Virus record (IMG/VR): IMGVR_UViG_3300012927_000093
Location: 1 to 62,268 of that record
Length of the DNA: 62,268 nucleotides
Strand: one strand, 5' to 3'
DNA from: a virus
A model generated the notes under the pieces. The model did not search any database. It saw only the letters and a list, made by a program, of their open reading frames with translations, and was not told the origin of the DNA. The translations under genes were made by a program, and so were the position numbers. The first letter of the stretch is position 1, and every line of letters begins with the position of its first letter. Of this stretch, positions 30,889 to 61,437 are shown piece after piece.

Positions 30889-32481
30889 TCACCACAAGTT
30901 GGGCACTTTTCGCTTCGCCAGCGACCCGTGTTCGATGGCCCAACCGCGGGCTTCGTAGGCCAAAAGCGCGGCCATGAAGGCCGAAATTGACTGTGCGTGA
31001 GACTTCTTGACGATGCGTTGGTAGTGCTCAGGCTGCCCAGGGACCCGTTCCTCAGCCGTGGAACGCCGCTTTCCGTTGGCCAAAGCGGCCCCAGCGGCGT
31101 GCATAGTGAGGATTTCGGTGCCGTCATGGGTCAGTTCGTCGCCCCGATGGGCGGTTTGGAACCGCTCCACCAGCTGATCCATGCGCAACTCGGAGTTGGT
31201 CCACAGTTCGTAGACCTTTTTCGGGTACTGGCCGTCCCAGCCGTTGACCTCGGTCTGCCAGCCGCTCGGCGTGCAGAAAAACGCCTCAACCTCGTACGCC
31301 TTGAACACGTCCCGGACGACTTGGTCGACCTCGTCGCGCGGAACGGTCCATTCGTCCTCGCCCGGGGCCCGTTCCCACGACCGGAGGTGGAAAATGTGCC
31401 CGTCGGAGAGCCTGGAGGCGCACAAACTGGTCGCATCCCGGTTCTGGGAGCCGTGGAAGCCCAGCGCGATCTTGTCTCGGGGCCGCAACCGCTCCCCGGG
31501 GCGGGCTTGGGCGTCCCACAGGATCATGTCGACGGCGTCGCGCGAGCCGACTGACACTTCGTTGAGGTAGTAGCGGCGAACTTCGCCCTCGGAGTGCGCC
31601 GGGTTCTGCACTTCCTTGGCGATACGGCTCAACCGGACCCAGCCGCCGCGTTCGGTAGCGCTGTCGCCGTATACGTAGGCCAGTTCAGCCATCAGTTCGG
31701 CGTCGTCCATCAGGTTCACGCGCCGACGAGGCGGCCGATAGTCCACATAGACATACCGATCGGCCGCTTCGTAGGTCCGCTGCGCCACCGAGCGCTCACT
31801 CGGGTCGTATGCGTTGCTGATCTCGATCCAGCGACCATCCATGCCGCCCAAGTTCCGCTTGAGCGTGCGTGCAAGCTTGAGTCCGCCACTGGTTTCGGTC
31901 ATCAGCTGGGTCTCGGTCATGCTCACGAACGTCACCCGGGCGCCCTGGCGAGCTCGTGAGGACGCCGTAACCGGCTCAATCCGCCCGTTGCCCGGCAGGT
32001 TGATGCGGGTCTCCCCTGGATCCAGGCCCGGAGTGCTCTGCAGTGGGCCCTCGCGCAGCATCGTGAGCAGCGGCCGGAACGTGTTGCCGGTCTGCTCCTC
32101 AGCGTTACCCGCGCACTGGATCCACGGGGTGGGCCACGGACGCCCTACCGGCTCGCCAGCGGCGTCCCAACCGGCGAAGCGCACCGGTCCGAGCGCCTCG
32201 GCGCAGATGATCGCCGCCGCGAACGGGTCCTTTCCCCATTTCTGCGGCCTGACCAGCAACGCACCGGAGAACCGGAACGCGTCCGACCCCTCGCCGTCGC
32301 GTGCATTCGGTACCAGCCGGTAGGCGTGCAGCAGGTGCATGTACTGCTCGTCGGTCAGGATGTACGGCTCGCCCATCCGCTCACCGTCGGGGATGATCAC
32401 GTTATCTTCGATAAAGGCTGCGACAGCGTGCCCCAAAGACGGCCAGCGGTCGCCGTCCGGGTCTGGCCCACGCCACGGCAT
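30889..32481 (-). CDS. Terminase large subunit (first set)
   Basis: 530 residues. The N-terminal ATPase has an unusual Walker-A-type string LLVRPQKWGKDPFAAAII (about 76-92) seen in actinophage terminases; a later YVYVDYRPPRRR and LGFHGSQNRDATSLCA (nuclease-type Asp) segment belong to the C-terminal nuclease. It would cut and translocate DNA into the head with TerS (35331-35771). Between it and terS, three unrelated genes are inserted, which is unusual. Confidence 0.9.
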   Translation of the reverse strand: MPWRGPDPDGDRWPSLGHAVAAFIEDNVIIPDGERMGEPYILTDEQYMHLLHAYRLVPNARDGEGSDAFRFSGALLVRPQKWGKDPFAAAIICAEALGPVRFAGWDAAGEPVGRPWPTPWIQCAGNAEEQTGNTFRPLLTMLREGPLQSTPGLDPGETRINLPGNGRIEPVTASSRARQGARVTFVSMTETQLMTETSGGLKLARTLKRNLGGMDGRWIEISNAYDPSERSVAQRTYEAADRYVYVDYRPPRRRVNLMDDAELMAELAYVYGDSATERGGWVRLSRIAKEVQNPAHSEGEVRRYYLNEVSVGSRDAVDMILWDAQARPGERLRPRDKIALGFHGSQNRDATSLCASRLSDGHIFHLRSWERAPGEDEWTVPRDEVDQVVRDVFKAYEVEAFFCTPSGWQTEVNGWDGQYPKKVYELWTNSELRMDQLVERFQTAHRGDELTHDGTEILTMHAAGAALANGKRRSTAEERVPGQPEHYQRIVKKSHAQSISAFMAALLAYEARGWAIEHGSLAKRKVPNLW

Positions 32482-32774: not shown

Positions 32775-33128
32775 CTACGGGACGGGAAACGGATCGGGCA
32801 CACGAGAACCCAGGTTGATCTCACGGTGGACGGTGATCTGCTCCCCGTCGCGTTCGCCGTACTCAAGCCATATGATCTTGTTGACGATGTCGGTGCCAGC
32901 TTCGCCTTGGCGCTCCACCCAGTGCGTCAGCAGCACTTCGGCCGGGTCGATGCCGTGCGCGGAGAACCAGTCCTGCCAGAGCTGCACATGCCCGGCTGAC
33001 TCGTGGTTGATGTCCTCGCGGAAGTAGTCCCGCACGTGGTAGTGGCCGTCTTCGGTGCAACCGTGGTCGGGACCACGGGCGCTCTGCGGGCAGCGGCGTA
33101 GCTGGGAACCACGCTTACGGTGTTCCAT
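32775..33128 (-). CDS. Hypothetical protein near spike gene
   Basis: 117 residues, with Cys13 and Cys25 and a His-rich part (CTEDGHYHVRDYFREDINHES), and a later ERDGEQITVHREINLG. It overlaps the 3' end of the spike gene by 14 bases. Metal binding is possible from the Cys/His pattern. No known family. Confidence 0.6.
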   Translation of the reverse strand: MEHRKRGSQLRRCPQSARGPDHGCTEDGHYHVRDYFREDINHESAGHVQLWQDWFSAHGIDPAEVLLTHWVERQGEAGTDIVNKIIWLEYGERDGEQITVHREINLGSRVPDPFPVP

Positions 33129-35049
33129 AGAACGCCTTCTGGTTCGCTTCGGCGGTCATCCGATCCAAGGTCGGCAGCACCGACGCCCAGAACACCGCCT
33201 CACTGAAATTCATGGCCAGCGGGGCGAGGGACCCGCTGCGGACCACGCCGCCAATGGCGAAACGGTCCCTCGTGGGCTCACCAACACCCCGGACGTAGGC
33301 GACCGGTGCTAGGTCGACCGCCGCGTCCAGCCACTGGGCCATCACCGTGCCGGTGTCTGTCCCTGACATTTGGTGGATGGAGCCGTTGAACGCGTTGCCG
33401 GCGCCCTGGTAGGTGGCGTCACTGGACACGATCTGAATGGAGACCAGCGGGCGGGCCCTGGACAGTCCGCCACCGGCGACGTTGTCCGGTTGGTTTAGCC
33501 CGTACTGGAAGTTGGTTTGGGCGATGACCGCCTCGGCCCACCAGCGTTTCTGCGCGACCGGGGTAGCGGCAGTCAGCACCCCGCACACCGACGCTGAACC
33601 AGCGGCAAACAGGTTCGGCGTCGTCGAGAACACCACGTCGTCGACACCGTCGAACGTGGCCGCGGGCTTCCCACCGGAGGTGATCACCGCGCCGGATGAG
33701 ACGAGCTTCGGCTGTGTGGTGGTGGTGGCCTGAGTGAGGTGCCTCGTGTTACCGGACTGGTCGTACCAGGTGTCTACGAAACCGTCACCGGCCCCGCAGA
33801 AGGTCAACAAGCTCGCGGTGTCCAGGGCGCCGGAGACGAACCCGATGTCCTGGGTGGTGCTGTCGGAGCTGCGGCGCACCTTGACCGCGCTACCGGCATA
33901 ACCAGGCACGACGAGGCGCAGCGAGTAGGCGCGGGCGGGAACGACGGACTGCCCGAGCCCGTGGTCAACCGGCGTTGCGGACACCGTGGCGGACACCGTT
34001 CCCGGCCCGGCAGTGGACACCGGGATCACCCGGAAGTCATAGCTCGTGCCGGTAGTCAGCCCCGTCGCGTTTGCGGTGAGGCCGGCCGTTGTGGTGGCGA
34101 TGGAAACCCACGTGCTGCCAGCGGTGGTTTTCTGCTGAAGGTTGTAGGCCCCGGCCCCGGACAAGGCGCTCCAGGTCAGGGTGAGCGCGGTGGCGCCGAC
34201 GCTGCTGGTCGCCAACCCCGTGACCTGACCCGGTACGGCTGGCGGGGTGGGGTCGGACGCGCCGGTGAGAACACGCTGGTAGGCGTCGAACATGCTCCGA
34301 CCCATGACCCGCTGCGCGACGGCGTTGTAGTGGTTACCGTCGCCGAGGTTCTGGCCGTATACCCCCGCCGCGATCCGACACCGGGTGTTCCTTCCGGGAG
34401 TCCCCAAATGCACCGTGTTGACCGCCGCCCTGGTGCCGGTGGCCAGGTACTCCGGGACCATCTGCCCCATCACGAACGGCAGGCTGGGCAAACCCAGGTC
34501 GGTGCGGGCGCCGGTGATCAGCGCATCCAGGTCGGTTTGATGCGTTGCGCCGCTGATCCCGTTGTCGCCGTCGGTTTCGCCCTGAATCCAGAGGATTGCC
34601 GCGATCCGCGCGTTCGTTCCCGCCGCCGCGAGTGCTGCTTGTGCCTGCGCGACGGCTTGGGCGTAGAGACCACCCGCCACGCCTCGGCGCCACCCAGTTG
34701 CCGATGCGGTTGACAGCTGAGTGCCGCCGAGCGCGGACGGCACCAGCAGAACCCTGCGGTTCACTGGGGACGAATGCAGGTACCAGCGGGCGAACACCAG
34801 GCCAGGGCCGATTCCGGACGGCACGTCCAGCATGGCCAGCGGCTCAATAGCTTGGGAGATGACGCCGGCGTAAGTGCCCGACGCGCCCCACTGCTGAATG
34901 CGCGGATCGGACGGGTCGTAGCGGGTCGTGTCGTAGGGGGTGCCCCTGCCGCTCATGTTCGACTGACCCCACAACAGGATCAGGTCATAGCCGACATCGG
35001 CGGTGCTCAGGGCAGCACTGGCGGACGACGAGACATTTAGCTTCGACAC
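33115..35049 (-). CDS. SGNH esterase spike with arabinofuranosidase-like domain
   Basis: 644 residues. Residues about 20-250 are an SGNH/sialate-O-acetylesterase-type hydrolase: GQSNM (28-32, Ser30), QGETD (156-160) and GDGNHYN with Asp237 and His240 as the likely triad. Residues about 273-360 form a fibronectin type III domain. The C-terminal part (SLRLVVPGYAGSAVKVRRSS, then FVDTWYDQSGNTRHLTQAT and GKPAATFDGVDD) resembles the catalytic/lectin domain of alpha-L-arabinofuranosidase B. It could deacetylate and bind a host surface glycan. Placement between terS and terL is odd for a spike. Confidence 0.8.
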   Translation of the reverse strand: MSKLNVSSSASAALSTADVGYDLILLWGQSNMSGRGTPYDTTRYDPSDPRIQQWGASGTYAGVISQAIEPLAMLDVPSGIGPGLVFARWYLHSSPVNRRVLLVPSALGGTQLSTASATGWRRGVAGGLYAQAVAQAQAALAAAGTNARIAAILWIQGETDGDNGISGATHQTDLDALITGARTDLGLPSLPFVMGQMVPEYLATGTRAAVNTVHLGTPGRNTRCRIAAGVYGQNLGDGNHYNAVAQRVMGRSMFDAYQRVLTGASDPTPPAVPGQVTGLATSSVGATALTLTWSALSGAGAYNLQQKTTAGSTWVSIATTTAGLTANATGLTTGTSYDFRVIPVSTAGPGTVSATVSATPVDHGLGQSVVPARAYSLRLVVPGYAGSAVKVRRSSDSTTQDIGFVSGALDTASLLTFCGAGDGFVDTWYDQSGNTRHLTQATTTTQPKLVSSGAVITSGGKPAATFDGVDDVVFSTTPNLFAAGSASVCGVLTAATPVAQKRWWAEAVIAQTNFQYGLNQPDNVAGGGLSRARPLVSIQIVSSDATYQGAGNAFNGSIHQMSGTDTGTVMAQWLDAAVDLAPVAYVRGVGEPTRDRFAIGGVVRSGSLAPLAMNFSEAVFWASVLPTLDRMTAEANQKAFYGTP

Positions 35050-35771: not shown

Positions 35772-35811
35772 CGGTCACCTCCTGGGTGGTTGATCTGGGA
35801 GAATGCGGTGC

Positions 35812-36300
35812 ATGCCCTGCTATAGCGCCGAGTGCGAGGAATGCGACGGCAGTGGGTTCGTCGTGACGTACGACGACGAGGACAATTGCCGGTGCCACTA
35901 CCCGACGAACGAGCTCTGTGACGCGTGCCGGGCGGAAATCGAACGCTGCAAGGCATACGTCGAGGAACGTCGCCGGCCGCGTCTGGAAATGATGCGCTCC
36001 ATGAAGGCGGCCATTGCCGAGATGCCCGGGAGGGCCGACATGGTGTTCGAAGTGTTGGTCGGGATGAACTACCCCGGCCCAGACGGCGTGGAGCGACGGT
36101 CCGAGGCCAACGCGATCGTGACGTACCTGCCGCCGGAGTCGCTCTCCTGGTTGATCAAGGACGGCCACGTCAAGCCGCTGTGCACCACCGGTGAGTCCCA
36201 CGACGAGTGCCCGTGCGAATGGCACCGGTTAGCCGCGCTAACCAAGGACGATCAAGAGTGGCTGTCGCTCTACGGCTGGACCAATCCGTTCAATGCCTGA
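35812..36300 (+). CDS. Zinc-finger protein, divergent from terS
   Basis: 162 residues from ATG 35812, chosen because GGGAGA sits about 9 bases upstream; the ATG at 35803 would leave no spacing. N-terminal Cys pairs (CYSAECEECDGSGF, CRCHYPTNELCDAC) form a DnaJ-type zinc region; a central domain follows and a second Cys group (CTTGESHDECPCEWH) closes the protein. It is divergently transcribed from terS with a 40-base gap. Role unknown; regulation or folding are possible. Confidence 0.65.
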   Translation: MPCYSAECEECDGSGFVVTYDDEDNCRCHYPTNELCDACRAEIERCKAYVEERRRPRLEMMRSMKAAIAEMPGRADMVFEVLVGMNYPGPDGVERRSEANAIVTYLPPESLSWLIKDGHVKPLCTTGESHDECPCEWHRLAALTKDDQEWLSLYGWTNPFNA

Positions 36301-36493
36301 GTGGTCGTTCGACGCCACGGTCAGCACGCATGATCTTCTCAAGCGCGGCGTGACCGAAGCCCGGTTGCCCGGTTCTCCGCACCACCACCACCGGGTCGTA
36401 GTGGCCGCTGAGACCCGCGACGAGGCCGCGTTGCTGGCCGCGCAGATGGTCTCCTGCACCGCGATCTGCACGGGGCTCTACGACCGCATCTGA
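36293..36493 (+). CDS. Small hypothetical protein
   Basis: 66 residues overlapping the previous gene by eight bases. The pattern HHHHRVVVAAETRDEAALLA, then AQMVSCT is a recurrent small actinophage protein that resembles an alpha/beta ferredoxin-like fold. Coupled translation is likely. Function unknown. Confidence 0.6.
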   Translation: MPEWSFDATVSTHDLLKRGVTEARLPGSPHHHHRVVVAAETRDEAALLAAQMVSCTAICTGLYDRI

Positions 36494-36576
36494 TACCCGT
36501 ACGCGCATGATCAGCGCCGGCTCAAAATCCGTACAGACCGCGAAAAACCGGGAGGAAGGGCCTGCGTCTTGATCGA

Positions 36577-36605
36577 TTGACCTTTCGATGCGCGACGCGT
36601 GTAAG
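36577..36605 (+). promoter_or_regulatory. Possible promoter
   Basis: TTGACC (36577-36582) and TGTAAG (36600-36605) are spaced 17 bases apart. The -10 is a weak match. It would transcribe the GT-rich stretch towards 36973. Confidence 0.3.
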
Positions 36606-36610
36606 GTCTG

Positions 36611-36630
36611 CGCAGGTCAGGGGCTTGCGA
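36611..36630 (+). repeat. Motif CGCAGGTCAGGGnnTTGCGA, copy 1
   Basis: This 20-mer differs at only two positions from 46674-46693, in another intergenic region beside the iteron-like block. The core GCAGGTCAG also occurs near the repressor start (55902) and twice within the 31-bp repeats. Confidence 0.4.
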
Positions 36631-36936
36631 GCTCGAGCCTGGCCGCCGGCGTGGAGCTCTGCCCTGGCCTGGTTCGGTTTGAGAAGAAGATCATTTAGAT
36701 TGTGTGTGATGGGTATGCACTCACACATACACACACGCCTGGGCGGGCACGTGCACATGGACAGTGGGTGGGTGCACGTGGTGCCTCGAGCATGGAGCTC
36801 ATAGGTGGTTGCACCCATGCATGGAGCTCATGGGGATGGGCAGTGCGGGTTGAGGGTGCGGCTGCCTCGCCGGCGCACGGGAGGGAGGGGTGCGGAGGGT
36901 GACCGGCCCGTGCCCTACAGGTAGGGCGTGTAGGCG

Positions 36937-36972
36937 TTGTGCACAGCAAGCAATGCGAGTAAGCTACTGTGC
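36937..36972 (+). promoter_or_regulatory. Leaderless promoter, copy 1
   Basis: TTGTGC (36937-36942), 17 bases, TAAGCT (36960-36965), then ACTGTGC and ATG at 36973. The -10 to ATG distance of seven bases leaves no room for a ribosome site, so transcription should begin at or beside the ATG. The TAAGCTnCTGTGCATGAC core is nearly the same as at 37444 and 39570. Confidence 0.65.
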
Positions 36973-37356
36973 ATGACCATCATCCGCGCTGCAGCACTGC
37001 TCATAGCTGGTGTGGCAGCTGGTGCCCTCATCACGCACTACAGCATGAGCACTGAGCAGCACAGCGTTGAGGCAGTGCATGTGATCGAGGTGCAGGCGCC
37101 CGATGCAATGCCGCCGTCCACCTACCTGGGCGAGAACGACCCGATCGTGCCCCTGGTGTGTGGTGTGAACCTGAATTGCTCCCAGGTGGACCGGCAGATT
37201 GCTGCCCAGAAGGCCCCGAAAACTCTCAAGGCGAAATCCGCCGCTAACTCTGCGCCCACCACCACCAACACCACGACCAAGTCGGTGCGCACCTCGACCT
37301 CGAAGTCTGGCGCGCACAGCACAACCGTGACGACAACCCACACGACCAAGCATTGA
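36973..37356 (+). CDS. Exported Thr/Ser/Lys-rich protein
   Basis: 127 residues from the leaderless ATG. A hydrophobic N-terminal helix (IIRAAALLIAGVAAGALI) acts as signal or anchor; an outside region with two Cys (VPLVCGVNLNCSQVDRQIA) follows; the C-terminal third is a low-complexity Thr/Ser/Lys tail. Single-pass surface display is likely. A hairpin terminator follows at 37374-37402, so it is a one-gene transcript. Confidence 0.7.
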   Translation: MTIIRAAALLIAGVAAGALITHYSMSTEQHSVEAVHVIEVQAPDAMPPSTYLGENDPIVPLVCGVNLNCSQVDRQIAAQKAPKTLKAKSAANSAPTTTNTTTKSVRTSTSKSGAHSTTVTTTHTTKH

Positions 37357-37373
37357 GCCCAGCGCTCCTGGGT

Positions 37374-37402
37374 CGCCCGCTCAACCAGTGGTTGGGCGGG
37401 CG
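37374..37402 (+). terminator. Hairpin terminator
   Basis: CGCCCGCTCAACC pairs with GGTTGGGCGGGCG over 13 positions (one G-U) with a three-base loop, ending 26 bases before the next promoter's -10 region and after the stop at 37356. The downstream sequence ATTCTCTG is only weakly T-rich. Confidence 0.65.
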
Positions 37403-37421
37403 ATTCTCTGTGCCAAGCTCA

Positions 37422-37456
37422 TTGACATCGTGCCGCTTGAGAGTAAGCTGCTGTGC
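37422..37456 (+). promoter_or_regulatory. Leaderless promoter, copy 2
   Basis: TTGACA (37422-37427), 16 bases, TAAGCT (37444-37449), GCTGTGC, then ATG at 37457. This copy has the consensus -35 and so may be the strongest of the set. Confidence 0.7.
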
Positions 37457-37696
37457 ATGACCACCGCATACGACCCGCACGCTGACTGGGCTCATGAAGA
37501 CCGCGCGATCAGCACCTGCGCGCTACAGCCCGTCCTCGGCCCCATGGTGTACGGCGATGCGTGCGACATCCGCGTTGGCCGGCGCCAGTGCGGTAGCGAG
37601 CTCGGTGTCCGTGAAGCACACGACGCTGACGGCCGCACCCGCATCATCTGCGCCCTGCATGCCCGCAAGCTGTTCCCGAATGGAGAGCAGCGATGA
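37457..37696 (+). CDS. Small zinc-finger-like protein, paralogue A
   Basis: 79 residues from the leaderless ATG (MTTAYDPHADWAHEDRAIST). A pattern ACDIRVGRRQCGSELGVRE, then RIICALHARKLF gives four metal-type ligands (Cys, Cys, Cys, His). The next gene codes for the same pattern (CDIKIDRQLCGSQLSLRQ, LCALHQARYF), so the two are tandem duplicates. They precede the RuvB-like gene with 4-base overlaps and may be partners or regulators of it. Confidence 0.7.
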   Translation: MTTAYDPHADWAHEDRAISTCALQPVLGPMVYGDACDIRVGRRQCGSELGVREAHDADGRTRIICALHARKLFPNGEQR

Positions 37697-37902
37697 CATC
37701 CGCTGGATGCGACATCAAGATAGATCGTCAGCTATGCGGTAGCCAACTCAGTCTCCGGCAGGTCGTGGACTTCGATGACCTAGGAGTCACCCACACCCGC
37801 ACGTTGTGCGCGTTGCACCAGGCGCGCTACTTCGATGCACGCTACGTACGAGAGCCGGCATTCGTGCAGACGCTGTCGTTCCGGCACGTACCCGTCGAAT
37901 GA
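37693..37902 (+). CDS. Small zinc-finger-like protein, paralogue B
   Basis: 69 residues. It overlaps paralogue A by four bases (ATGA) and the RuvB-like gene by four bases. It shares with A the order C-D-I-x-x-x-R-Q-x-C-G-S-x-L and C-A-L-H-x-A-R-x-F. A small metal-bound fold is likely; function unknown. Confidence 0.7.
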   Translation: MTSAGCDIKIDRQLCGSQLSLRQVVDFDDLGVTHTRTLCALHQARYFDARYVREPAFVQTLSFRHVPVE

Positions 37903-39134
37903 CCGTCTTCGTCGATGGCGGACTGGCCGGTGAGGACGTGCATCTCCTCGTCGGTCAGTCCGTCGTCACCGTGCCTGGCATTGGCCGCTACCGCATCAAC
38001 GACAACGGCACGTCCACGCTCATGACCGGCTCGAGAGGAAAACCGAAGGTGACCGATTTCAGCGAGTTTGCCGCCCGCATGGGCATCAAGGTGAAGGAGC
38101 CGAAGCCCGTTGTGGTGCGCGAAGCCGCATCGGCGGCTTCGAGGTCCAAGGCAGTGCGACCGACCGACATCATCACGATGATCGGTCAGGAGAAACTGCG
38201 CGTGCGGCTGACAGCCCATATGCGGGCCTCGAAGCTGCTCGGCAAGCCGGTGGGTCACATCCTGCTGCAAGGCCCTCCAGGTCTCGGCAAGACCAGCATT
38301 GCGATGCTCATTGCCGACATGGCGGGTGGCGATCTCGTCATCGCATCCGGTGATGCGCTCAAGACGCCCGAGACGCTGGTCAACGAGCTCGGAGAGCTCA
38401 AGGACGGCGACGTGTACTTCATCGAGGAGATGCACGGTCTGCCCGAGAAGCCCAAGCGCACGTTGTTGACCGCGATGGAGGACGGTCGCGTGGACATCGC
38501 GGTCGGCTCCGGTTCGCGCAGCGTCGTCGAGTCCAAGATGCTGAACGACTTCATCCTGGTCGGCGCCACCACCGAACCGGGCAAGCTCCCGCAGCCGCTA
38601 CTCGACCGATTCGCCATCCGTGGGTCGCTGGACTACTACGACGCTGACGAGATCGCCGAAATCATCACCCAAGCCGCTAAGCGCGACCGCATCAAGATCG
38701 AAGAGGAAGCGGCTACCGAACTAGCGCACCGCAGCCGGCGCACGCCCCGGATTGCGCTCAACCTGCTGGCAATGGCCCATGAGTACGCGGTGGCGTCCGC
38801 TGACTCGACCGATGTACCGGTCACCGTGCTGGACGTCAACCGGGCCCTGGAGATGGAGGACATCGACCACAACGGGCTGACCAAGGCAGACCGCTCGGTG
38901 CTGTGGGACCTGTGCAAGGTGCACAAGGGCGGTCCGGTGGGCCTGACCAACCTGGCCACCGGCGCGGACACCGACAACCGCACGCTTGAGTCCATCGAGT
39001 CGTACCTGATCCGGGCCAAGTACATCATCCGCACCGGTCAGGGCCGGGTGGCGACGAACTGGGGATTCGAGGCTGTCGGGCTCGAGCCGCCGGTGACCGC
39101 GCCGCACGCGGAGGACATGGAGATGGAGGACTAG
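37899..39134 (+). CDS. RuvB-like branch-migration ATPase
   Basis: 411 residues from ATG 37899. From about residue 87 it follows RuvB: IITMIGQEKL, Walker A GPPGLGKT (125-132), Walker B-like VYFIEEMHGL (172-181; RuvB usually has DEIH), GATTEPGKL (222-230), LLDRF (234-238), HRSRRTPRIA (277-286) and a winged helix GPVGLTNLA with RTGQGRVAT. The first 85 residues have no RuvB counterpart. RuvB drives Holliday junction branch migration on RuvA; no RuvA gene is visible. A RuvC-like resolvase is encoded at 44727-45278. Expressed from the leaderless promoter at 37422. Confidence 0.85.
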   Translation: MTVFVDGGLAGEDVHLLVGQSVVTVPGIGRYRINDNGTSTLMTGSRGKPKVTDFSEFAARMGIKVKEPKPVVVREAASAASRSKAVRPTDIITMIGQEKLRVRLTAHMRASKLLGKPVGHILLQGPPGLGKTSIAMLIADMAGGDLVIASGDALKTPETLVNELGELKDGDVYFIEEMHGLPEKPKRTLLTAMEDGRVDIAVGSGSRSVVESKMLNDFILVGATTEPGKLPQPLLDRFAIRGSLDYYDADEIAEIITQAAKRDRIKIEEEAATELAHRSRRTPRIALNLLAMAHEYAVASADSTDVPVTVLDVNRALEMEDIDHNGLTKADRSVLWDLCKVHKGGPVGLTNLATGADTDNRTLESIESYLIRAKYIIRTGQGRVATNWGFEAVGLEPPVTAPHAEDMEMED

Positions 39135-39481
39135 ACCCGGTCGTTCTTGTGCGAGTTGCAACCCCTGCACAGCACGGCGTAGTTGCTCGACTCGTGCATG
39201 AGGTCGGGGCGCACGGTGCGAGGAATGATGTGGTCAGCCGTGAGCTGCTGCGTTCCCGTCGCGTTCGGCACCACCGGATGCGGCGGGAAATCGTTCCACC
39301 CCGGACACACCCACCCGTAGCGAGCGACCCAGTCTGAGATCAGCTGGTGCGCGATGCGCTGGTGTTGCCGCCCGAGCCCCTTGGACGTGGCGCTGGCCCG
39401 GTAGCTGGCGGTTCCGCACTTGCCCCCGCACCGTGAGCCGCGGGTGGGTTGTCCGCAGGCAAGGCACGGTTTGAGCGCCAT
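39131..39481 (-). CDS. HNH endonuclease
   Basis: 116 residues. CLACG..GSRCGGKC gives a Cys-type zinc site; then CPGWNDFPPHPV, LTADHIIPRTVRPDL and YAVLCRGCNSHKNDR make the HNH core. This form (with AVLCRGCN) is typical of small actinophage HNH proteins that may help terminase in packaging. Convergent with the RuvB-like gene, overlapping by four bases. Confidence 0.8.
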   Translation of the reverse strand: MALKPCLACGQPTRGSRCGGKCGTASYRASATSKGLGRQHQRIAHQLISDWVARYGWVCPGWNDFPPHPVVPNATGTQQLTADHIIPRTVRPDLMHESSNYAVLCRGCNSHKNDRV

Positions 39482-39546
39482 CGCCGGCGTCCCTTCAGCA
39501 CGTCACGTCTTAGCTGGCATCCGGCGCATTCGCATCGCACAAACAC

Positions 39547-39582
39547 TTGGCATCCATATCATGTTGCTGTAAGCTTCTGTGC
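39547..39582 (+). promoter_or_regulatory. Leaderless promoter, copy 3
   Basis: TTGGCA (39547-39552), 17 bases, TAAGCT (39570-39575), TCTGTGC and ATG at 39583. Drives the 86-residue gene and Ku. Confidence 0.65.
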
Positions 39583-39843
39583 ATGACGACGACGAGCTCG
39601 GTGGAGATGACGATCAGCACCTTCGGCCCCGACGGTGCCGTGTTCCTGGCTCCGACCACCAGCACTTGCCCCGACACGTGGCGCGAGGAGCTCGCCAAGA
39701 AGCGGCGCAACCGGAACCTGGCCGAGATCGCCGGCGGCTTCGAGTTCGACTCTTACTGCCCCGGCTACTGGGACCACCAGGAGGACGCCGAGTACATGCA
39801 GGCGATCCGCACTCGGGTCACGTTCACCTCGAAGGAGATCTGA
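39583..39843 (+). CDS. Hypothetical protein upstream of Ku
   Basis: 86 residues from the leaderless ATG (MTTTSSVEMTISTFGPDG). Beta then charged helix (WREELAKKRRNRNLAEIAGG), ends TRVTFTSKEI. The Ku start lies one base past its stop, so both are on one message. No family recognised; a Ku partner is a possibility. Confidence 0.65.
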   Translation: MTTTSSVEMTISTFGPDGAVFLAPTTSTCPDTWREELAKKRRNRNLAEIAGGFEFDSYCPGYWDHQEDAEYMQAIRTRVTFTSKEI

Positions 39844-39844
39844 C

Positions 39845-40636
39845 ATGTTCTCGAAAGCCACCTGGACCGGCACCATCTCGTTCGGCCTGGTCTCCGTGCC
39901 GGTCAAGCTGTACGGCGCGACCGAAGAGCACGGAATCGAAACGCATGAAGTCCACCCGGTCGACGGGGGTCGGGTGGGCCACAAGCGCGTGTGCAAGGAC
40001 TGCGACAAGGAGATCGCGTATGGCGATCTAGGCCGCAGCGTGGTCGATGTCGATGGCCACACGCACGTGTTCACCAAGTCCGAGCTCGACGCGCTGTCCG
40101 ACGCAAAAGACCACTCGATCACCCTGGACAGTTTCTGCGATCCGGACCAGATCGACCCGCTGTATCTGAGCAAGACGTATTACGTGCGGCCGGACTACAT
40201 GATCCGCAAGCGGGGCGATGCGCCCCGCGCGAACAAGCCGTTCGCGGTGTTCGCCGCTTCGTTGGCCAGCTCAGGCAAAGCGGCCATCGGTCGCGTCGTG
40301 ATGCGGTCGCGGGAATCCCTGGTGGCCATCACCATGCGCGAGGACGTGATGGTGCTGCGCGTGGTGCTGTGGGCCGATGAGATCCGTCAGCCGGTGTTCC
40401 AGGAGCCCGAGGTGCCAGTGGTGGACGTTCCCACTCAGCACGCCATGGAGGCGCTGCAGCTCATCGACGCGCTGACCATCAAGTTCGACATCAACTCGCA
40501 CGTGGACCGGCGCGAGCTCGCGCTGTCGGACCTGATCGCATCGCGGCGCGAGCCGGTCGAGAGCACGGACAGCGACGCCCAGGTGATCGAGCTGTTCAAC
40601 CGGCTGCCCAAGCCCGCCGTCACGCACGCCGTGTGA
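39845..40636 (+). CDS. ku: Phage Ku protein (end-joining)
   Basis: 263 residues. The start (TWTGTISFGLVSVPVKLYGA), GGRVGHKRVCKDCDKEIAYG, FCDPDQIDPLYLSKTYYVRP, IGRVVMRSRESLVAI and LRVVLWADEIR match bacterial Ku throughout the beta-barrel and dimer ring. It lacks the Lys-rich C-terminal extension seen in some bacterial Ku. Ku homodimers bind DNA ends and recruit LigD. Mycobacteriophages Omega and Corndog carry Ku that helps circularise their genomes; no ligase is encoded here, so host LigD would be needed. Confidence 0.92.
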   Translation: MFSKATWTGTISFGLVSVPVKLYGATEEHGIETHEVHPVDGGRVGHKRVCKDCDKEIAYGDLGRSVVDVDGHTHVFTKSELDALSDAKDHSITLDSFCDPDQIDPLYLSKTYYVRPDYMIRKRGDAPRANKPFAVFAASLASSGKAAIGRVVMRSRESLVAITMREDVMVLRVVLWADEIRQPVFQEPEVPVVDVPTQHAMEALQLIDALTIKFDINSHVDRRELALSDLIASRREPVESTDSDAQVIELFNRLPKPAVTHAV

Positions 40637-40679
40637 CGCCCAACAACTGGACGTGACCACCACGGGAGGTGTAGAAACT

Positions 40680-40979
40680 GTGCGTAGCAATCTACGGACG
40701 GGGTGTGTGGTGGCGCGAGCATCAGCGGCGAGGCTGGCCAGCAAGATCGAGGAGCTGCAGGCCGAGTACGAACAGGCCGTCGCCCACCAACATGATGATC
40801 TACTCGGTGCGATCTCGAACGTTGCCGCTGTGCTGCGCAACGCTACCGAGCTGAAGATCAAGCTGGTGCGCGAGGCGCTAGCCCAGCACCAGGCGGGCAA
40901 CGGACCGGAGCGGCAGCAGATCGCCGCAGCGGCTGAGATGTCGCGCAACGCCCTGTACTACCCGCCGTACAAGGACTAG
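40680..40979 (+). CDS. Small coiled-coil DNA-binding candidate
   Basis: 99 residues from GTG 40680 (GGGAGG upstream); a GTG at 40653 is an alternative. A coiled helix (KIEELQAEYEQAVAHQHDD) precedes a second helical part and a short helix-turn-helix-like C-terminus (QQIAAAAEMSRNALYYP). It lies 43 bases after Ku and ends overlapping a convergent gene by four bases. DNA binding is inferred from the helix-turn-helix-like end only. Confidence 0.65.
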   Translation: MRSNLRTGCVVARASAARLASKIEELQAEYEQAVAHQHDDLLGAISNVAAVLRNATELKIKLVREALAQHQAGNGPERQQIAAAAEMSRNALYYPPYKD

Positions 40980-44167: not shown

Positions 44168-44730
44168 CACGTCACCCCGAACTGTCGCAACGTAGCCCAA
44201 GCCTGTTTGATTCTGTCGCAGGATTTGCACACCCGGCCCCCGTCACGGCGCACCCGGACGTTGTCCCCGGCCTTGACGTGGATGCGGCGCGAGCACCGGA
44301 CGATCGGGGCACCGGCGAGGTCGGCCGAGGGCAGCTCCGGGGCGGCCCGCATCTCGTCGATGATGTGTTTCGCGTTGGCGATCGCGTCGGCGCGGCGCTT
44401 CTCGTGGGCCCACATCGGTGCGCCCTGGCGGTGCGCGGGTAGGTGCGGGTAGCGCAGCGGGGCCGAAACGGGGGCTGTGCGGGCCGCTGAGGGCTTGGGA
44501 ACCAGTCGCAGGGGTTCCGGGGTGGGCGGCACGTAGCCGAGCGCTACGCGGCGGCTCAGGAGCATTGCGTCGGCTACCGCTTCGAGGCCGAGCACCGCCA
44601 GCATCTCGGCTAGGTCCGGGCCGCGGAACCGACGCATCACGGTAAGTACCGCGCTGTGCGACTCATCGGTGACCACGTGTGAGTTCAGGGTCTCCGTGCT
44701 GCCGCCGTTAAACGGGTCGATCGCGCTCAT
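44164..44730 (-). CDS. Hypothetical early protein
   Basis: 188 residues from ATG 44730 with a GGAGGGAG ribosome site. N-terminal helical part (DLAEMLAVLGLEAVADAMLL), middle with HEKRRADAIANAKHIIDEMR, and C-terminal CSRRIHVKAGDNVRVRRDGG, RVCKSCDRIKQAW, a small Cys zinc-ribbon. It overlaps the RuvC-like gene by four bases. A DNA or RNA contact role is possible. Confidence 0.7.
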   Translation of the reverse strand: MSAIDPFNGGSTETLNSHVVTDESHSAVLTVMRRFRGPDLAEMLAVLGLEAVADAMLLSRRVALGYVPPTPEPLRLVPKPSAARTAPVSAPLRYPHLPAHRQGAPMWAHEKRRADAIANAKHIIDEMRAAPELPSADLAGAPIVRCSRRIHVKAGDNVRVRRDGGRVCKSCDRIKQAWATLRQFGVTW

Positions 44731-45278
44731 GCGGCTCCCTCCAGTTCGGTGGTGCGCTCTGGCCACTCGGCCTTGACGGTCTTGTGCCGCTCGAGCGTCG
44801 GCACGTCCATGCCCAGCCACACCGCGCCCAGGTGGGCGAGGCCCGCGGCGTCCGCCATGTCCGCGTTGCCGTCGAAGTCGGGCCACAGCCGCTGCACCGC
44901 CAGGGCGAGCTGAACCTTGTCCGCCTTGCCCGACCCGAAGATGGCCAGCTTCAGCGAGGTCGGCGGCACGATCGCCACCGGCACTTCCCGGCGGATCAGC
45001 CCGCCCGCAACGAACCAGAACAGCGCGGCCCGGTCGATCAGGCTGCCGGCCTTCGGCCCGGTGAACAGCCCCTCGATCACGGCCAGGTCACACACACCGG
45101 CGTGGTGCAGGATGCCGTTGCCCAGCTCGGTCAGCCTCGCGTGCCGCTCGACCAGCGACGCGGCTCGCTTGCCCTTGGACGTGATCGTGTCGGTGACCAT
45201 CTTGGTGCCGCGGCTGGTTTCGAGGCAGATGGCGATGCCGGTGCAGGTGAGGGAAAGGTCCAACCCGGCGCATTTCAC
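44727..45278 (-). CDS. RuvC-like Holliday junction resolvase
   Basis: 183 residues. MKCAGLDLSLTCTGIAICLE holds the first catalytic Asp (D7), VIEGLFTGP the Glu, and the C-terminal part ADMADAAGLAHLGAVW the two Asp of the RuvC metal site, all in RNase H fold order. RuvC cuts four-way junctions, useful before packaging of branched phage DNA. It is next to a PD-(D/E)XK exonuclease (4-base overlap). The matching RuvB-like motor is at 37899. Confidence 0.85.
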   Translation of the reverse strand: MKCAGLDLSLTCTGIAICLETSRGTKMVTDTITSKGKRAASLVERHARLTELGNGILHHAGVCDLAVIEGLFTGPKAGSLIDRAALFWFVAGGLIRREVPVAIVPPTSLKLAIFGSGKADKVQLALAVQRLWPDFDGNADMADAAGLAHLGAVWLGMDVPTLERHKTVKAEWPERTTELEGAA

Positions 45279-46387
45279 TTCGCCACCTGCTCGTCGGCCG
45301 ACTCGAGCTCGCGGCGGCGCTTACCGAACCGCGCCTTGAGCACCTCGTTCCAGGCACCGGCCGCCTTAGCTCGCTCGTAGGCCATCGTCAGGTCGAACAC
45401 CGTGCTCACGTACTCGCAGGTCACCGTGAAGTCTTCGACCACGCTGCCCGCCACGATCGAGTTCTTGCCCCGGGCGTTGCGCCACTCGTAGCAAGCCCGC
45501 GCCACCTCGGCGGCCAGGGCGTACTCGGCGAGGTCGACCCAGTGCAGCCGAGCTTGCCCCGACCCTGACGCGACGTGGAAGATGACCGCCCAGTCCTGGC
45601 GCGGCGGCTCGTGCTCCCACGGCGTGCGGAGCTTCTGGATCGGGTCGTACGGAGTGCCAGTCGCGTACGCCCAGCACTGAACCCCGAACTTGGACCCGGC
45701 GAAGTCCATCGACCCGGACGTCTTCACGTCCCCGATCAACACCGAGCCCGGCTCGATGACCGCGACCGTGTTGCCGCCCTTGTCCGTGACCGGCAGCGGA
45801 ACCAGCACCTCGACCGCCCGGTCCAACGTGCCGGCGACGCGGTGGTCGTCCTGCACCACGAACAGCTCCGAACTCAGTACGCGGAAGCCCTCGGTCAGCT
45901 TTCGGTACGCGGCCAGGTCGGGGCGCCACTGCTCCGGCAGGTGCCCGGGGTCGCGTCCGAGGTCGACCATCTCGAACACGTCGTGCAGGCTCGTGCCGAT
46001 TGAGGCCTTCGCGCCGGACTCGACGACCTCCATCGCGTCCTCGCACAACTGGTCGAGTTTCCTCTTGGCCGCCTTCGCCTCGGCGGCCTCGCCCTCGAGC
46101 CCGACCTCGGCCCGAGTCACCGCAAGGCCAAGGTCGGACCGACGGGCGATGCCGCGAGCGACTTGGCGCAATTTCCATAGGTCGAGGAGCTTGCTGCTCT
46201 CGAGCGGAGAGCCGTAGGAGGACGCTCGGCGATAGCCGACCTCCTTCGAGCCATCCGGGAGCATGATCTTTGGCCGCTTCCATTGGTCGCGGTTGTTGTC
46301 GATCGCTTGCGCGAACGCGAACTTGCGCGCGGCGACTGGGTCGGTGGGTGCGGGTGTTGATGTTGACTGGCTAGCGCCCTTGATCAT
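45275..46387 (-). CDS. PD-(D/E)XK exonuclease (Cas4/RecB-like)
   Basis: 370 residues, ATG 46387 with GAGGAG. The nuclease core is at about 120-250: IGTSLHDVFEMV (130-141), SSELFVVQDDHRVAGTLDRA with Asp189, LIGDVKTSGSMDFAGSKFGV with Asp220 and Lys222, and Gln237 in the QxxxY-type motif (VQCWAY). This matches the RecB/Cas4 exonuclease family used in phage recombination. Neighbours are RuvC-like and prim-pol/helicase genes. Confidence 0.85.
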   Translation of the reverse strand: MIKGASQSTSTPAPTDPVAARKFAFAQAIDNNRDQWKRPKIMLPDGSKEVGYRRASSYGSPLESSKLLDLWKLRQVARGIARRSDLGLAVTRAEVGLEGEAAEAKAAKRKLDQLCEDAMEVVESGAKASIGTSLHDVFEMVDLGRDPGHLPEQWRPDLAAYRKLTEGFRVLSSELFVVQDDHRVAGTLDRAVEVLVPLPVTDKGGNTVAVIEPGSVLIGDVKTSGSMDFAGSKFGVQCWAYATGTPYDPIQKLRTPWEHEPPRQDWAVIFHVASGSGQARLHWVDLAEYALAAEVARACYEWRNARGKNSIVAGSVVEDFTVTCEYVSTVFDLTMAYERAKAAGAWNEVLKARFGKRRRELESADEQVAK

Positions 46388-59507: not shown

Positions 59508-59939
59508 ATGGGTGACCACTCCGGCCCTTACGCGTCAACGGACCCGAACAAATCCCCCGAGGTCGTGGATGCCGAGGCTGCGTTGGCATATGCGCGGCTG
59601 CTGCGTCGTGAGGCGCCGAACGATATTGCCCGCGATCTTGGGATTTCGAGGGCGACTTTCTATCGCAGAATCGAAATGTTGATGTTGCGACATGACCGCC
59701 CTTCTCGATCTTTGATGCAGGTGATCGCGCACGACGAGCTTGATCAACTGACGCGGATGACGATGCAGCGGCTGCAGGAAGAGTGCTCGAACCAGGACTT
59801 TGTGAAGCTGGTGGGCGAGCTGCGCCAGCAGAACACGGCGCGACTCAAGCTGTACGAAGACGCGCCGGCGAACACCGATGAGGGTGAGTCCACCGAAGAG
59901 GATTGGGACGACTGGGAGTCCGATGACCGCGCCAGTTAA
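59508..59939 (+). CDS. Terminase small subunit-like (second set)
   Basis: 143 residues, GGAG before the ATG. VDAEAALAYARLLRREAPND, IARDLGISRATFYRRIEMLM is a helix-turn-helix; HDELDQLTRMTMQRLQEEC follows, and an acidic C-terminus (EEDWDDWESDD). An HTH plus oligomerising helix and position before a large terminase gene fit a small terminase subunit. Overlaps that gene by 17 bases. Confidence 0.65.
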   Translation: MGDHSGPYASTDPNKSPEVVDAEAALAYARLLRREAPNDIARDLGISRATFYRRIEMLMLRHDRPSRSLMQVIAHDELDQLTRMTMQRLQEECSNQDFVKLVGELRQQNTARLKLYEDAPANTDEGESTEEDWDDWESDDRAS

Positions 59940-61437
59940 GCGCCGGCTCGAAGGTCCGCCCGGCTTCCGTCCCGAGCTCTACACAGCGAAGCTGCGCCAC
60001 GGCGCGTTCCGCACGCACACCCAGGAGTGCATCAACAAGCGCCGGGATTGGTGCCGCACCTCCCCGATCCTGTTCGCGCTCTACTACCTGGCACCGCACG
60101 TGATGCTGCCCGGGATGCTGCACGCGTTGAGCGATCTGCACATAGCGCTGGCCATGTCGGCGAAGCGGTGGATGCGTACCGACGTCGGCCCAAAGGAGAT
60201 CCGCGACGCCTGGGTAGCGCCCCGGGACGCTGCCAAGACGACGTGGCTGTTCCTGATCTTGCCGCTGTGGAGCATGGCGTTCGGGCACCGCAAGTTCATC
60301 GTCGTCTACTCCGACACCGAGGATCAGGCGAAGCTGCACTTGGCCACGCTCAAGCTGCAGTTCGCGCAGAACGAGCGGCTGATGCGGGACTTTCCTGAGC
60401 TGTGCACGCCGATGAAGACTGGCGGCCGGGCGCTTAAGGACAACGACACGACGTACCTGGCAGCCAACGGCGCGATCATCATGGTGAAGGGGATGAACTC
60501 AGCGACGCTGGGCGTGAAGTGGGACAACCTGCGCCCGGACGCGCTGCTGTTCGATGAAGTCGAGCCCAAGAAGGGCCGCTACAACGTCGAGATGAAGCGC
60601 AAGCGGCTCGAGGATCTGATCGACGTGATCTTGCCGTGCAACTTCTCGGCGGTGGTCCAGATCGCGGGGACGACCGTGATGGCCGGCTCGATCATTCACA
60701 ATCTCGTCGAGGGCGACGCGTGGGTGGCCGAGGAGAACATCACGGTCCATCACTTCCGGGGCATCATCGAAGACCCTGAGACCGGAGACGAACGGTCGCT
60801 CTGGGAGCCGAAGTGGAGCCTGGAGTTCCAGCGCGAGGAGCGGCTGCGCAACCCGCGCGGCTACGCCAAGAACTTCGACAACGCCCCGGTCGACGAGAAC
60901 GGCACGTTCTGGGACGACGACGACATCACCTACGACACGCGCCTGCTCGAGCACATCACCGAGCGAATCCTGGTCGTGGACCCGGCATCGAAGTCCAAGA
61001 AGACGAACGACGAGACCGGCATCGCCATGGTGTCCTATGCCGGCAACGTGCGCCGTGTGATCGTCGAGCGGGTGATGGGTGTGCGGCTGAAGCCAGACAA
61101 GCTACGCGAGCTGGTGCACTCGATCGTCCGCAACAACGGCATCCGCCTCATCGTGGTGGACGTGACCAACGGCGGCGACCACGTGGAGAACACACTGTCG
61201 CCGCTGCCGCCTGGCGTGCGGGTGTTCCCGGTGTCGCTGCGCCGATCGAAGATCGATCGGATCACGGACTTGCATGACTGCTACCTGCGCAAGCCGCCGA
61301 TGGTGGTGCACGCCCGGCCGATTTCGACGCTTGAGGCGCAGATGAAGGCTTACCCCAAGACGCTCCACGATGACCAGATCGACGCTGTGGCGCTCGGCAA
61401 GGAGTACTTCCACGGCGAGCTGAAGGCCGCTAGCTGA
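59923..61437 (+). CDS. Terminase large subunit (second set)
   Basis: 504 residues from ATG 59923. WVAPRDAAKTTWLFLILPLW (Walker A type APRDAAKTT, 99-107), KFIVVYSDTEDQAKLHLATL, ALLFDEVEP (207-215, Walker B), and nuclease-type VVDPASKSKKTNDETGIAM and VVDVTNGGDHVENTL. It is not similar in strings to the first TerL (30889-32481). No portal follows in the remaining 800 bases. Packaging of its own element, or an accessory motor, are options. Confidence 0.85.
   Translation: MTAPVKRRLEGPPGFRPELYTAKLRHGAFRTHTQECINKRRDWCRTSPILFALYYLAPHVMLPGMLHALSDLHIALAMSAKRWMRTDVGPKEIRDAWVAPRDAAKTTWLFLILPLWSMAFGHRKFIVVYSDTEDQAKLHLATLKLQFAQNERLMRDFPELCTPMKTGGRALKDNDTTYLAANGAIIMVKGMNSATLGVKWDNLRPDALLFDEVEPKKGRYNVEMKRKRLEDLIDVILPCNFSAVVQIAGTTVMAGSIIHNLVEGDAWVAEENITVHHFRGIIEDPETGDERSLWEPKWSLEFQREERLRNPRGYAKNFDNAPVDENGTFWDDDDITYDTRLLEHITERILVVDPASKSKKTNDETGIAMVSYAGNVRRVIVERVMGVRLKPDKLRELVHSIVRNNGIRLIVVDVTNGGDHVENTLSPLPPGVRVFPVSLRRSKIDRITDLHDCYLRKPPMVVHARPISTLEAQMKAYPKTLHDDQIDAVALGKEYFHGELKAAS

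Follow-up and report, generated by a model that had tools for sequence, protein, structure and literature searches.

The IMG/VR virus record IMGVR_UViG_3300012927_000093, a linear sequence of 62,268 bases analysed here over its whole length (the window), is actinophage-like and encodes a RuvB motor and a Ku protein close together in an island of small genes. Both are true members of their families, the Ku being of the bacterial type. In the accepted view of bacterial RuvB, RuvA both loads the motor and regulates it. The phage variant has probably left RuvA, to judge from a genome that encodes no RuvA and a docking surface that has become charged with the motor core kept, while the Ku probably circularises the phage genome together with the LigD of the host. 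The two genes are:

37899-39134, plus strand: RuvB motor, 411 residues, with a small beta domain at residues 1-60 and the RuvB core at residues 88-395
39845-40636, plus strand: Ku, 263 residues, bacterial type, with the minimal C-terminus only

Relatives were collected from viral-contig searches and with one degenerate pattern in bacterial genomes. Three are used for comparison: A (IMGVR_UViG_3300036795_000115, 68.7 kb), B (contig JAOPXC010000370.1, 69.4 kb, within a Nocardioides metagenome-assembled genome, MAG) and C (IMGVR_UViG_3300031446_000027), a 6.4 kb fragment that starts inside RuvB. The ends of B overlap by 127 bases, so that it was assembled as a circle and is circularly complete.

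The window RuvB exceeds the cut-offs of the Pfam families RuvB_N, AAA_lid_4 and RuvB_C and passes that of NCBIfam NF000868 (287 bits against 282), and it fails the stricter TIGR00635 (258 against 299). When the AlphaFold model, made from a 20-sequence alignment and with a mean pLDDT of 85.8, was compared using Foldseek, RuvB structures ranked first with TM-scores of up to 0.94 by target length. Walker A, the arginine finger R237 and the sensor-2 residue R284 are invariant across the phage and bacterial RuvBs. An earlier note, made from the sequence of the window alone, had drawn attention to an altered Walker B. The alteration is present in the window as FIEEMH, and the two glutamates are also seen in A. 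In B, however, the motif is FVDEIHG with the normal DE, and the change can be ruled out as a family-defining trait. The phage RuvB is only 38% identical to the RuvB of the MAG and 43% identical to the closest found, from Tsukamurella, values that speak against a recent host gene. A match to a Tsukamurella ‘plasmid’ RuvB proved to be an ordinary ruvCAB amid host genes. In a tree the phage RuvBs stand on one very long branch, the placement of which is unsure.

Searches for RuvA were negative in the window, in A, in C and in the circular B; the search of the window, A and C recovered all 10 bacterial controls, and 32 RuvA homologues turned up when the neighbourhoods of 31 bacterial RuvB loci were searched. 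RuvA encoded with RuvB, as in the RuvABC resolvasome, was thus found in none of the four, and the claim of a phage RuvB without RuvA stands. It is strengthened by the circular completeness of B, by the altered docking hairpin and by the further RuvA-less viral RuvBs described below. The MAG that carries B has a RuvA near its own RuvB. In bacteria, domain III of RuvA docks on a hydrophobic surface of RuvB that alpha3 forms together with the presensor-1 hairpin (PMC9477746; PMC10272136). Position 211 of this hairpin is Ile, Leu or Val in 32 of 32 sampled bacterial RuvBs and Glu in all three phages, and position 213, Leu or Ile in the same 32, is Lys in all three. The hairpin itself is still formed in the AlphaFold model (E197-202, E209-214). 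Other residues that are invariant in the bacteria are also altered in the three phages, E186/E187 to Lys/Arg and R226 to Glu. Positions 211 and 213 align with I148 and I150 of the E. coli protein, the sequence of which was used for numbering only, with K68, D113 and R174 falling in the expected places. These two isoleucines are presumably important for RuvA binding in E. coli.

At its N-terminus the phage protein carries the additional region that the earlier note had put at 85 residues. It is approximately 86 residues long and is conserved from the first methionine in three genomes. In the model, five short strands make up residues 1-44 (pLDDT ~74-90), and a weak linker leads from them to the RuvB core. 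The extension is not a fused RuvA OB domain, for which hhalign gave a probability of <1%, and no relative of it was found by tblastn among phage records.

The Ku scores 193 bits against TIGR02772 (cut-off 150) and 6e-34 against Pfam Ku. It starts a single base past the end of an 86-residue gene, orf86 (39843/39845), just as the earlier note had placed it. The C-terminus of the phage Ku fits the motif [VI]xxLxxxL, common to the MAG Ku and the Omega-type Ku; in this comparison of sequences only, the phage proteins read VIELFNRL or VVSLLDRL, the MAG Ku VVDLLAAL and Omega VADLVAKL. The long basic tail of the MAG Ku is missing from the phage protein. The minimal C-terminus of Ku has been reported to be sufficient to stimulate ligation by LigD (PMC9638933). 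No LigD-type ligase was found in the window, in B or in G001, one IMG/VR relative, in agreement with the earlier reading that no ligase is visible. In the MAG holding B, a single contig encodes both Ku and LigD, the link of this MAG to the host coming from binning only. The absence of a phage LigD, the Ku and LigD of the MAG and the retained C-terminal motif are all consistent with the earlier suggestion that this Ku works with host LigD. Omega-type virions have 4-base 3' overhangs, and non-homologous end joining has been proposed for their circularisation (PMC3706429; PMC7719229). A and B encode serine integrases, and integration calls for a circular form.

Viral RuvBs unaccompanied by RuvA are a recurrent finding. 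A scan of viral contigs with two short RuvB peptides gave 17 further contigs with RuvB-like proteins. Such scans need exact peptide matches, making all counts lower bounds, and wider scans with RuvB- and Ku-specific peptides mostly returned contigs already found. In one of the 17 (L134) RuvB lies next to RuvA; no RuvA is present on the remaining 16 contigs, and 10 of these 16 RuvBs miss one or both of the hydrophobic anchors. Shortened or polar hairpins are seen in some of the RuvA-less proteins (L125-L142, ~16). RuvB and Ku occur together in at least two lineages. The second is G104 (IMGVR_UViG_3300036857_000619, 124.8 kb), in which portal, major head protein and TerL were found and which encodes RuvB, Ku and, near the Ku, an ATP-dependent ligase, with no RuvA; Ku, ligase and RuvB might here form a self-sufficient end-joining set. 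More usually Ku is found without RuvB, which was present in only one (G104) of 12 Ku-bearing records tested. Viral RuvBs are apparently little described: among 50,697 phage records there was no match covering 80% of the window RuvB, the PHROG search of the window gave no match to a RuvB family, a RuvB-like appearance was noted for only one among the 50 top-ranking predicted viral folds, and nothing specific on phage-encoded RuvB was found in the literature searched.

The island is ordered zn1, zn2, RuvB, HNH (on the opposite strand), orf86, Ku and orf108. Besides RuvB and Ku, its genes and two from the neighbouring replication block are:

37457-37696, plus strand: zn1, 79 residues, a small zinc-ribbon-like protein with C-x8-C...C-x2-H/C
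37693-37902, plus strand: zn2, 69 residues, a paralogue of zn1, in the window only
39131-39481, minus strand: HNH endonuclease, 116 residues, between RuvB and the Ku unit
39583-39843, plus strand: orf86, 86 residues, with unrelated reading frames in its place in the relatives
40653-40979, plus strand: orf108, a helical small protein of 108 residues directly after Ku
44727-45278, minus strand: RuvC-like resolvase (phrog_159, 2.5e-31)
45275-46387, minus strand: phage exonuclease (phrog_466, 8e-55)

The order RuvB–HNH–Ku is identical in A and B and is also kept in C with its partial RuvB, and RuvB and Ku remain one to two genes apart in three genomes. Identity to the window is 77-84% for RuvB (A, B), 73-77% for Ku and 80-86% for the HNH protein (A, B, C). 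The block keeps its place on the packaging side in genomes whose replication genes differ. By the C-terminus of RuvB the window and A form one group (94%), B and C another (95%). Ku, on the other hand, pairs A with B (92%), and the window and C stand apart. The alleles of the two genes thus group differently, and the genes have therefore been reshuffled.

The earlier note had gone further in suggesting that Ku, RuvB, the RuvC-like protein and the zinc proteins could belong to one system, and as one fixed system this is not supported. The RuvC-like protein that it had placed at 44727 is borne out by the PHROG match. Neither this protein nor the Prim-Pol protein of the window has a match in A or B at E 1e-3, and A and B have instead a RusA-like resolvase (phrog_244; L078 9871-10257 and L084 14655-15035). 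The resolvase has been exchanged within one phage lineage with RuvB retained, ruling out the RuvC-like gene as a fixed partner of RuvB. The site of orf86 is occupied by unrelated open reading frames in A, B and C, which likewise rules it out as a partner of Ku. Of the zinc proteins, zn1 is kept in the relatives (60% identity in A, 58% in B), its final Cys/His pair being interchangeable, whereas A and B have unrelated genes at the site of zn2, which is 39% identical to zn1 over 49 positions. What remains of the ‘twin zinc-finger-like proteins’ is that two small Cys/His proteins precede RuvB, joined by ATGA overlaps; neither has a family match in profile searches and the second is not conserved. 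That most Ku-bearing viral contigs lack RuvB also speaks against a fixed system. The search for the same gene set in other phages, as the note had recommended, yielded RuvB–HNH–Ku in A, B and C, the remaining partners not all being constant. The HNH gene had been overlooked, as had the gene after Ku, orf108. The latter has 20-24% identity to the 110-residue genes that follow Ku in A, B and C; these are clearly related to each other and the window version is divergent.

The explanation that we prefer, holding it to be about as probable as all others taken together, is one of separate roles, the island being a place where two early-type phage functions lie side by side. Ku would bind the linear genome at its ends after injection and recruit host LigD, by which the genome would be closed to a circle, as has been proposed for mycobacteriophages Omega and Corndog. 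RuvB would be a RuvA-independent phage translocase on duplex DNA. Its ring would still assemble, hydrolyse ATP and grip duplex DNA but would no longer act by way of RuvA; either the N-terminal beta domain of the protein itself or another partner would probably position it. It would move phage duplex DNA, with branch migration at recombination or replication junctions of the phage, and the interchangeable resolvase, RuvC-like or RusA-like, would then cut these junctions. The family identities, the kept motor residues, the lost hydrophobic docking residues, the absence of RuvA and the conserved block can be read from the sequences; from them we infer that RuvB works independently of RuvA, the route by which it is loaded, every activity on DNA and the use of host LigD. 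Several observations weigh against this explanation. The substitutions in the hairpin could still allow a rewired contact with host RuvA, and the role of the N-terminal domain is a guess because the domain has no detectable relatives. The C-terminal hairpin that contacts DNA has Gln where the Pseudomonas protein has R317, and its first Arg is Gly in B; given these changes, DNA binding by the phage RuvB may differ. The position of the block on the packaging side fits a role in recombination less neatly. Lastly, the link to a Nocardioides host is provided by the binning of a single MAG.

A rival explanation has Ku and RuvB acting jointly on genome ends, where Ku would mark and bridge the ends and RuvB would load at or close to them and travel along the DNA to clear, align or hand them on, in place of the FtsK-like motor that lies near the Ku of Omega-type phages. 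In its favour, the block stays with packaging-side genes despite the exchanged replication genes, RuvB and Ku are one to two genes apart in three genomes with the same order in fragment C, and a second lineage, G104, lacks RuvA and combines RuvB and Ku with an ATP-dependent ligase; an FtsK-like motor near Ku is also seen in WXIN and L174/L175. Nonetheless we consider joint action unlikely. RuvB and Ku are ~20 kb apart in G104, itself the only one of the 12 tested Ku records with RuvB, Corndog-type phages have neither FtsK nor RuvB near Ku, RuvB groups the window with A and B with C where Ku pairs A with B, and phages are so gene-rich that neighbourhood alone is weak evidence. A broader version, that some Ku actinophages couple Ku to an exchangeable ring translocase, either FtsK-like or a RuvA-free RuvB, loaded at Ku-held ends for circularisation, protection or re-packaging, seems to us somewhat less likely still. 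The presence of RuvA in the MAG, the ability of RuvA–RuvB pairs to work across species (PMC9477746) and the hydrophobic anchors kept in 6 of the 16 other RuvA-less viral RuvBs, that of G104 included, are consistent with an ordinary spare RuvB that would use host RuvA and raise branch-migration capacity in infection. For the RuvB of the window this is quite unlikely, as both anchor positions are charged in all three genomes and other bacterially invariant positions are charge-reversed. Poisoning of host RuvAB, through mixed rings or occupied junctions, as a takeover or counter-defence factor is highly improbable: the leaderless, SigA-like unit starts suggest early expression and a motor altered on its surface but unchanged in its core would be suited to mixed rings, but the ATPase is conserved rather than inactivated, and 38% identity to the MAG RuvB makes co-assembly doubtful.

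The layout of the window is siphovirus-like. Up to 35,771 the minus strand encodes the small terminase subunit, TerL, the portal, a protease and the major head protein; the plus-strand island of small genes follows at 35,803-40,979, and after it comes the minus-strand replication block (exonuclease, Prim-Pol). Within the island the following unit starts are seen:

36930-36976, plus strand: leaderless unit start, the common leader ahead of the ATG at 36976, as at 39583
37411-37456, plus strand: promoter-like start of a leaderless unit upstream of zn1-zn2-RuvB (promoter-like sequence at 37422-37456), with -35 TTGACA, -10 TAAGCT, 7 nt and ATG
39538-39582, plus strand: promoter-like, leaderless start of the Ku unit (TTGGCA...TAAGCT-7nt-ATG)

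All three units are leaderless, with a -10 TAAGCT, 7 nt and ATG, and TTGACA or TTGGCA upstream where visible. At the equivalent genes the relatives have TAGAGT/TAGTGT-TATGGAC-ATG in place of this leader. Two window proteins have matches among terminase large subunits, each in different PHROGs, at 30889-32481 (phrog_9/19179) and 59878-61437 (phrog_38), and both have relatives in A and B; the second matched nothing in Pfam or the PDB. A 644-residue protein (33115-35049), encoded between the small terminase gene and TerL, combines a sialate-acetylesterase-like (SASA) domain with a stretch resembling arabinofuranosidase and an fn3-like domain and is likely a tail or decoration enzyme.

Relative to the bacterial RuvBs (S. 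thermophilus 7PBL, T. thermophilus 1IXS/8EFV, P. aeruginosa 6BLB, E. coli 9DX3), with 34-43% identity, the phage protein has the same AAA+ core, lid and winged helix and shares Walker A, the arginine finger and sensor 2. It differs in its extra N-terminal domain, in the charged hairpin at the RuvA-docking site, in having no RuvA gene and in the EE-to-KR and R-to-E charge reversals at residues invariant in bacteria. A RuvA-less lineage with a kept motor, a charged docking surface and an added domain would permit a direct test of alternative ways of loading and driving RuvB. G104 has in common with the window a RuvA-less phage RuvB together with Ku, but its RuvB is more bacterial-like (458 bits, with the hydrophobic hairpin kept) and is distant from Ku, and it has its own ATP-dependent ligase.

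The Ku shares with those of Omega (Omegavirus) and Corndog type the bacterial-type core and an actinobacterial virus as its carrier, no LigD having been found in the window lineage. It is 34% identical to the Omega-type protein, with which it also has the minimal C-terminal motif in common, and 24% identical to the Corndog-type protein. Omega-type Ku has an Lsr2 DNA-binding domain as its tail (PF23359; L160 2998-3846), as already noted (PMC3706429), and the window Ku lacks this tail. The motor near Ku is RuvB in the window and FtsK-like in Omega-type phages, in WXIN, where it is one gene away, and in contigs L174/L175; in Corndog-type phages neither was found near Ku and a classical AAA ATPase lies farther off. 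FtsK has been reported in Cluster J and in no other mycobacteriophages, its function being unclear (PMC3706429). Like RuvB in the window, the Omegavirus translocase is a ring-forming motor on duplex DNA a few genes from a phage Ku, though it belongs to FtsK/SpoIIIE, an ATPase family unrelated to RuvB. This parallel poses a concrete question as to how phages with Ku handle their genome ends.

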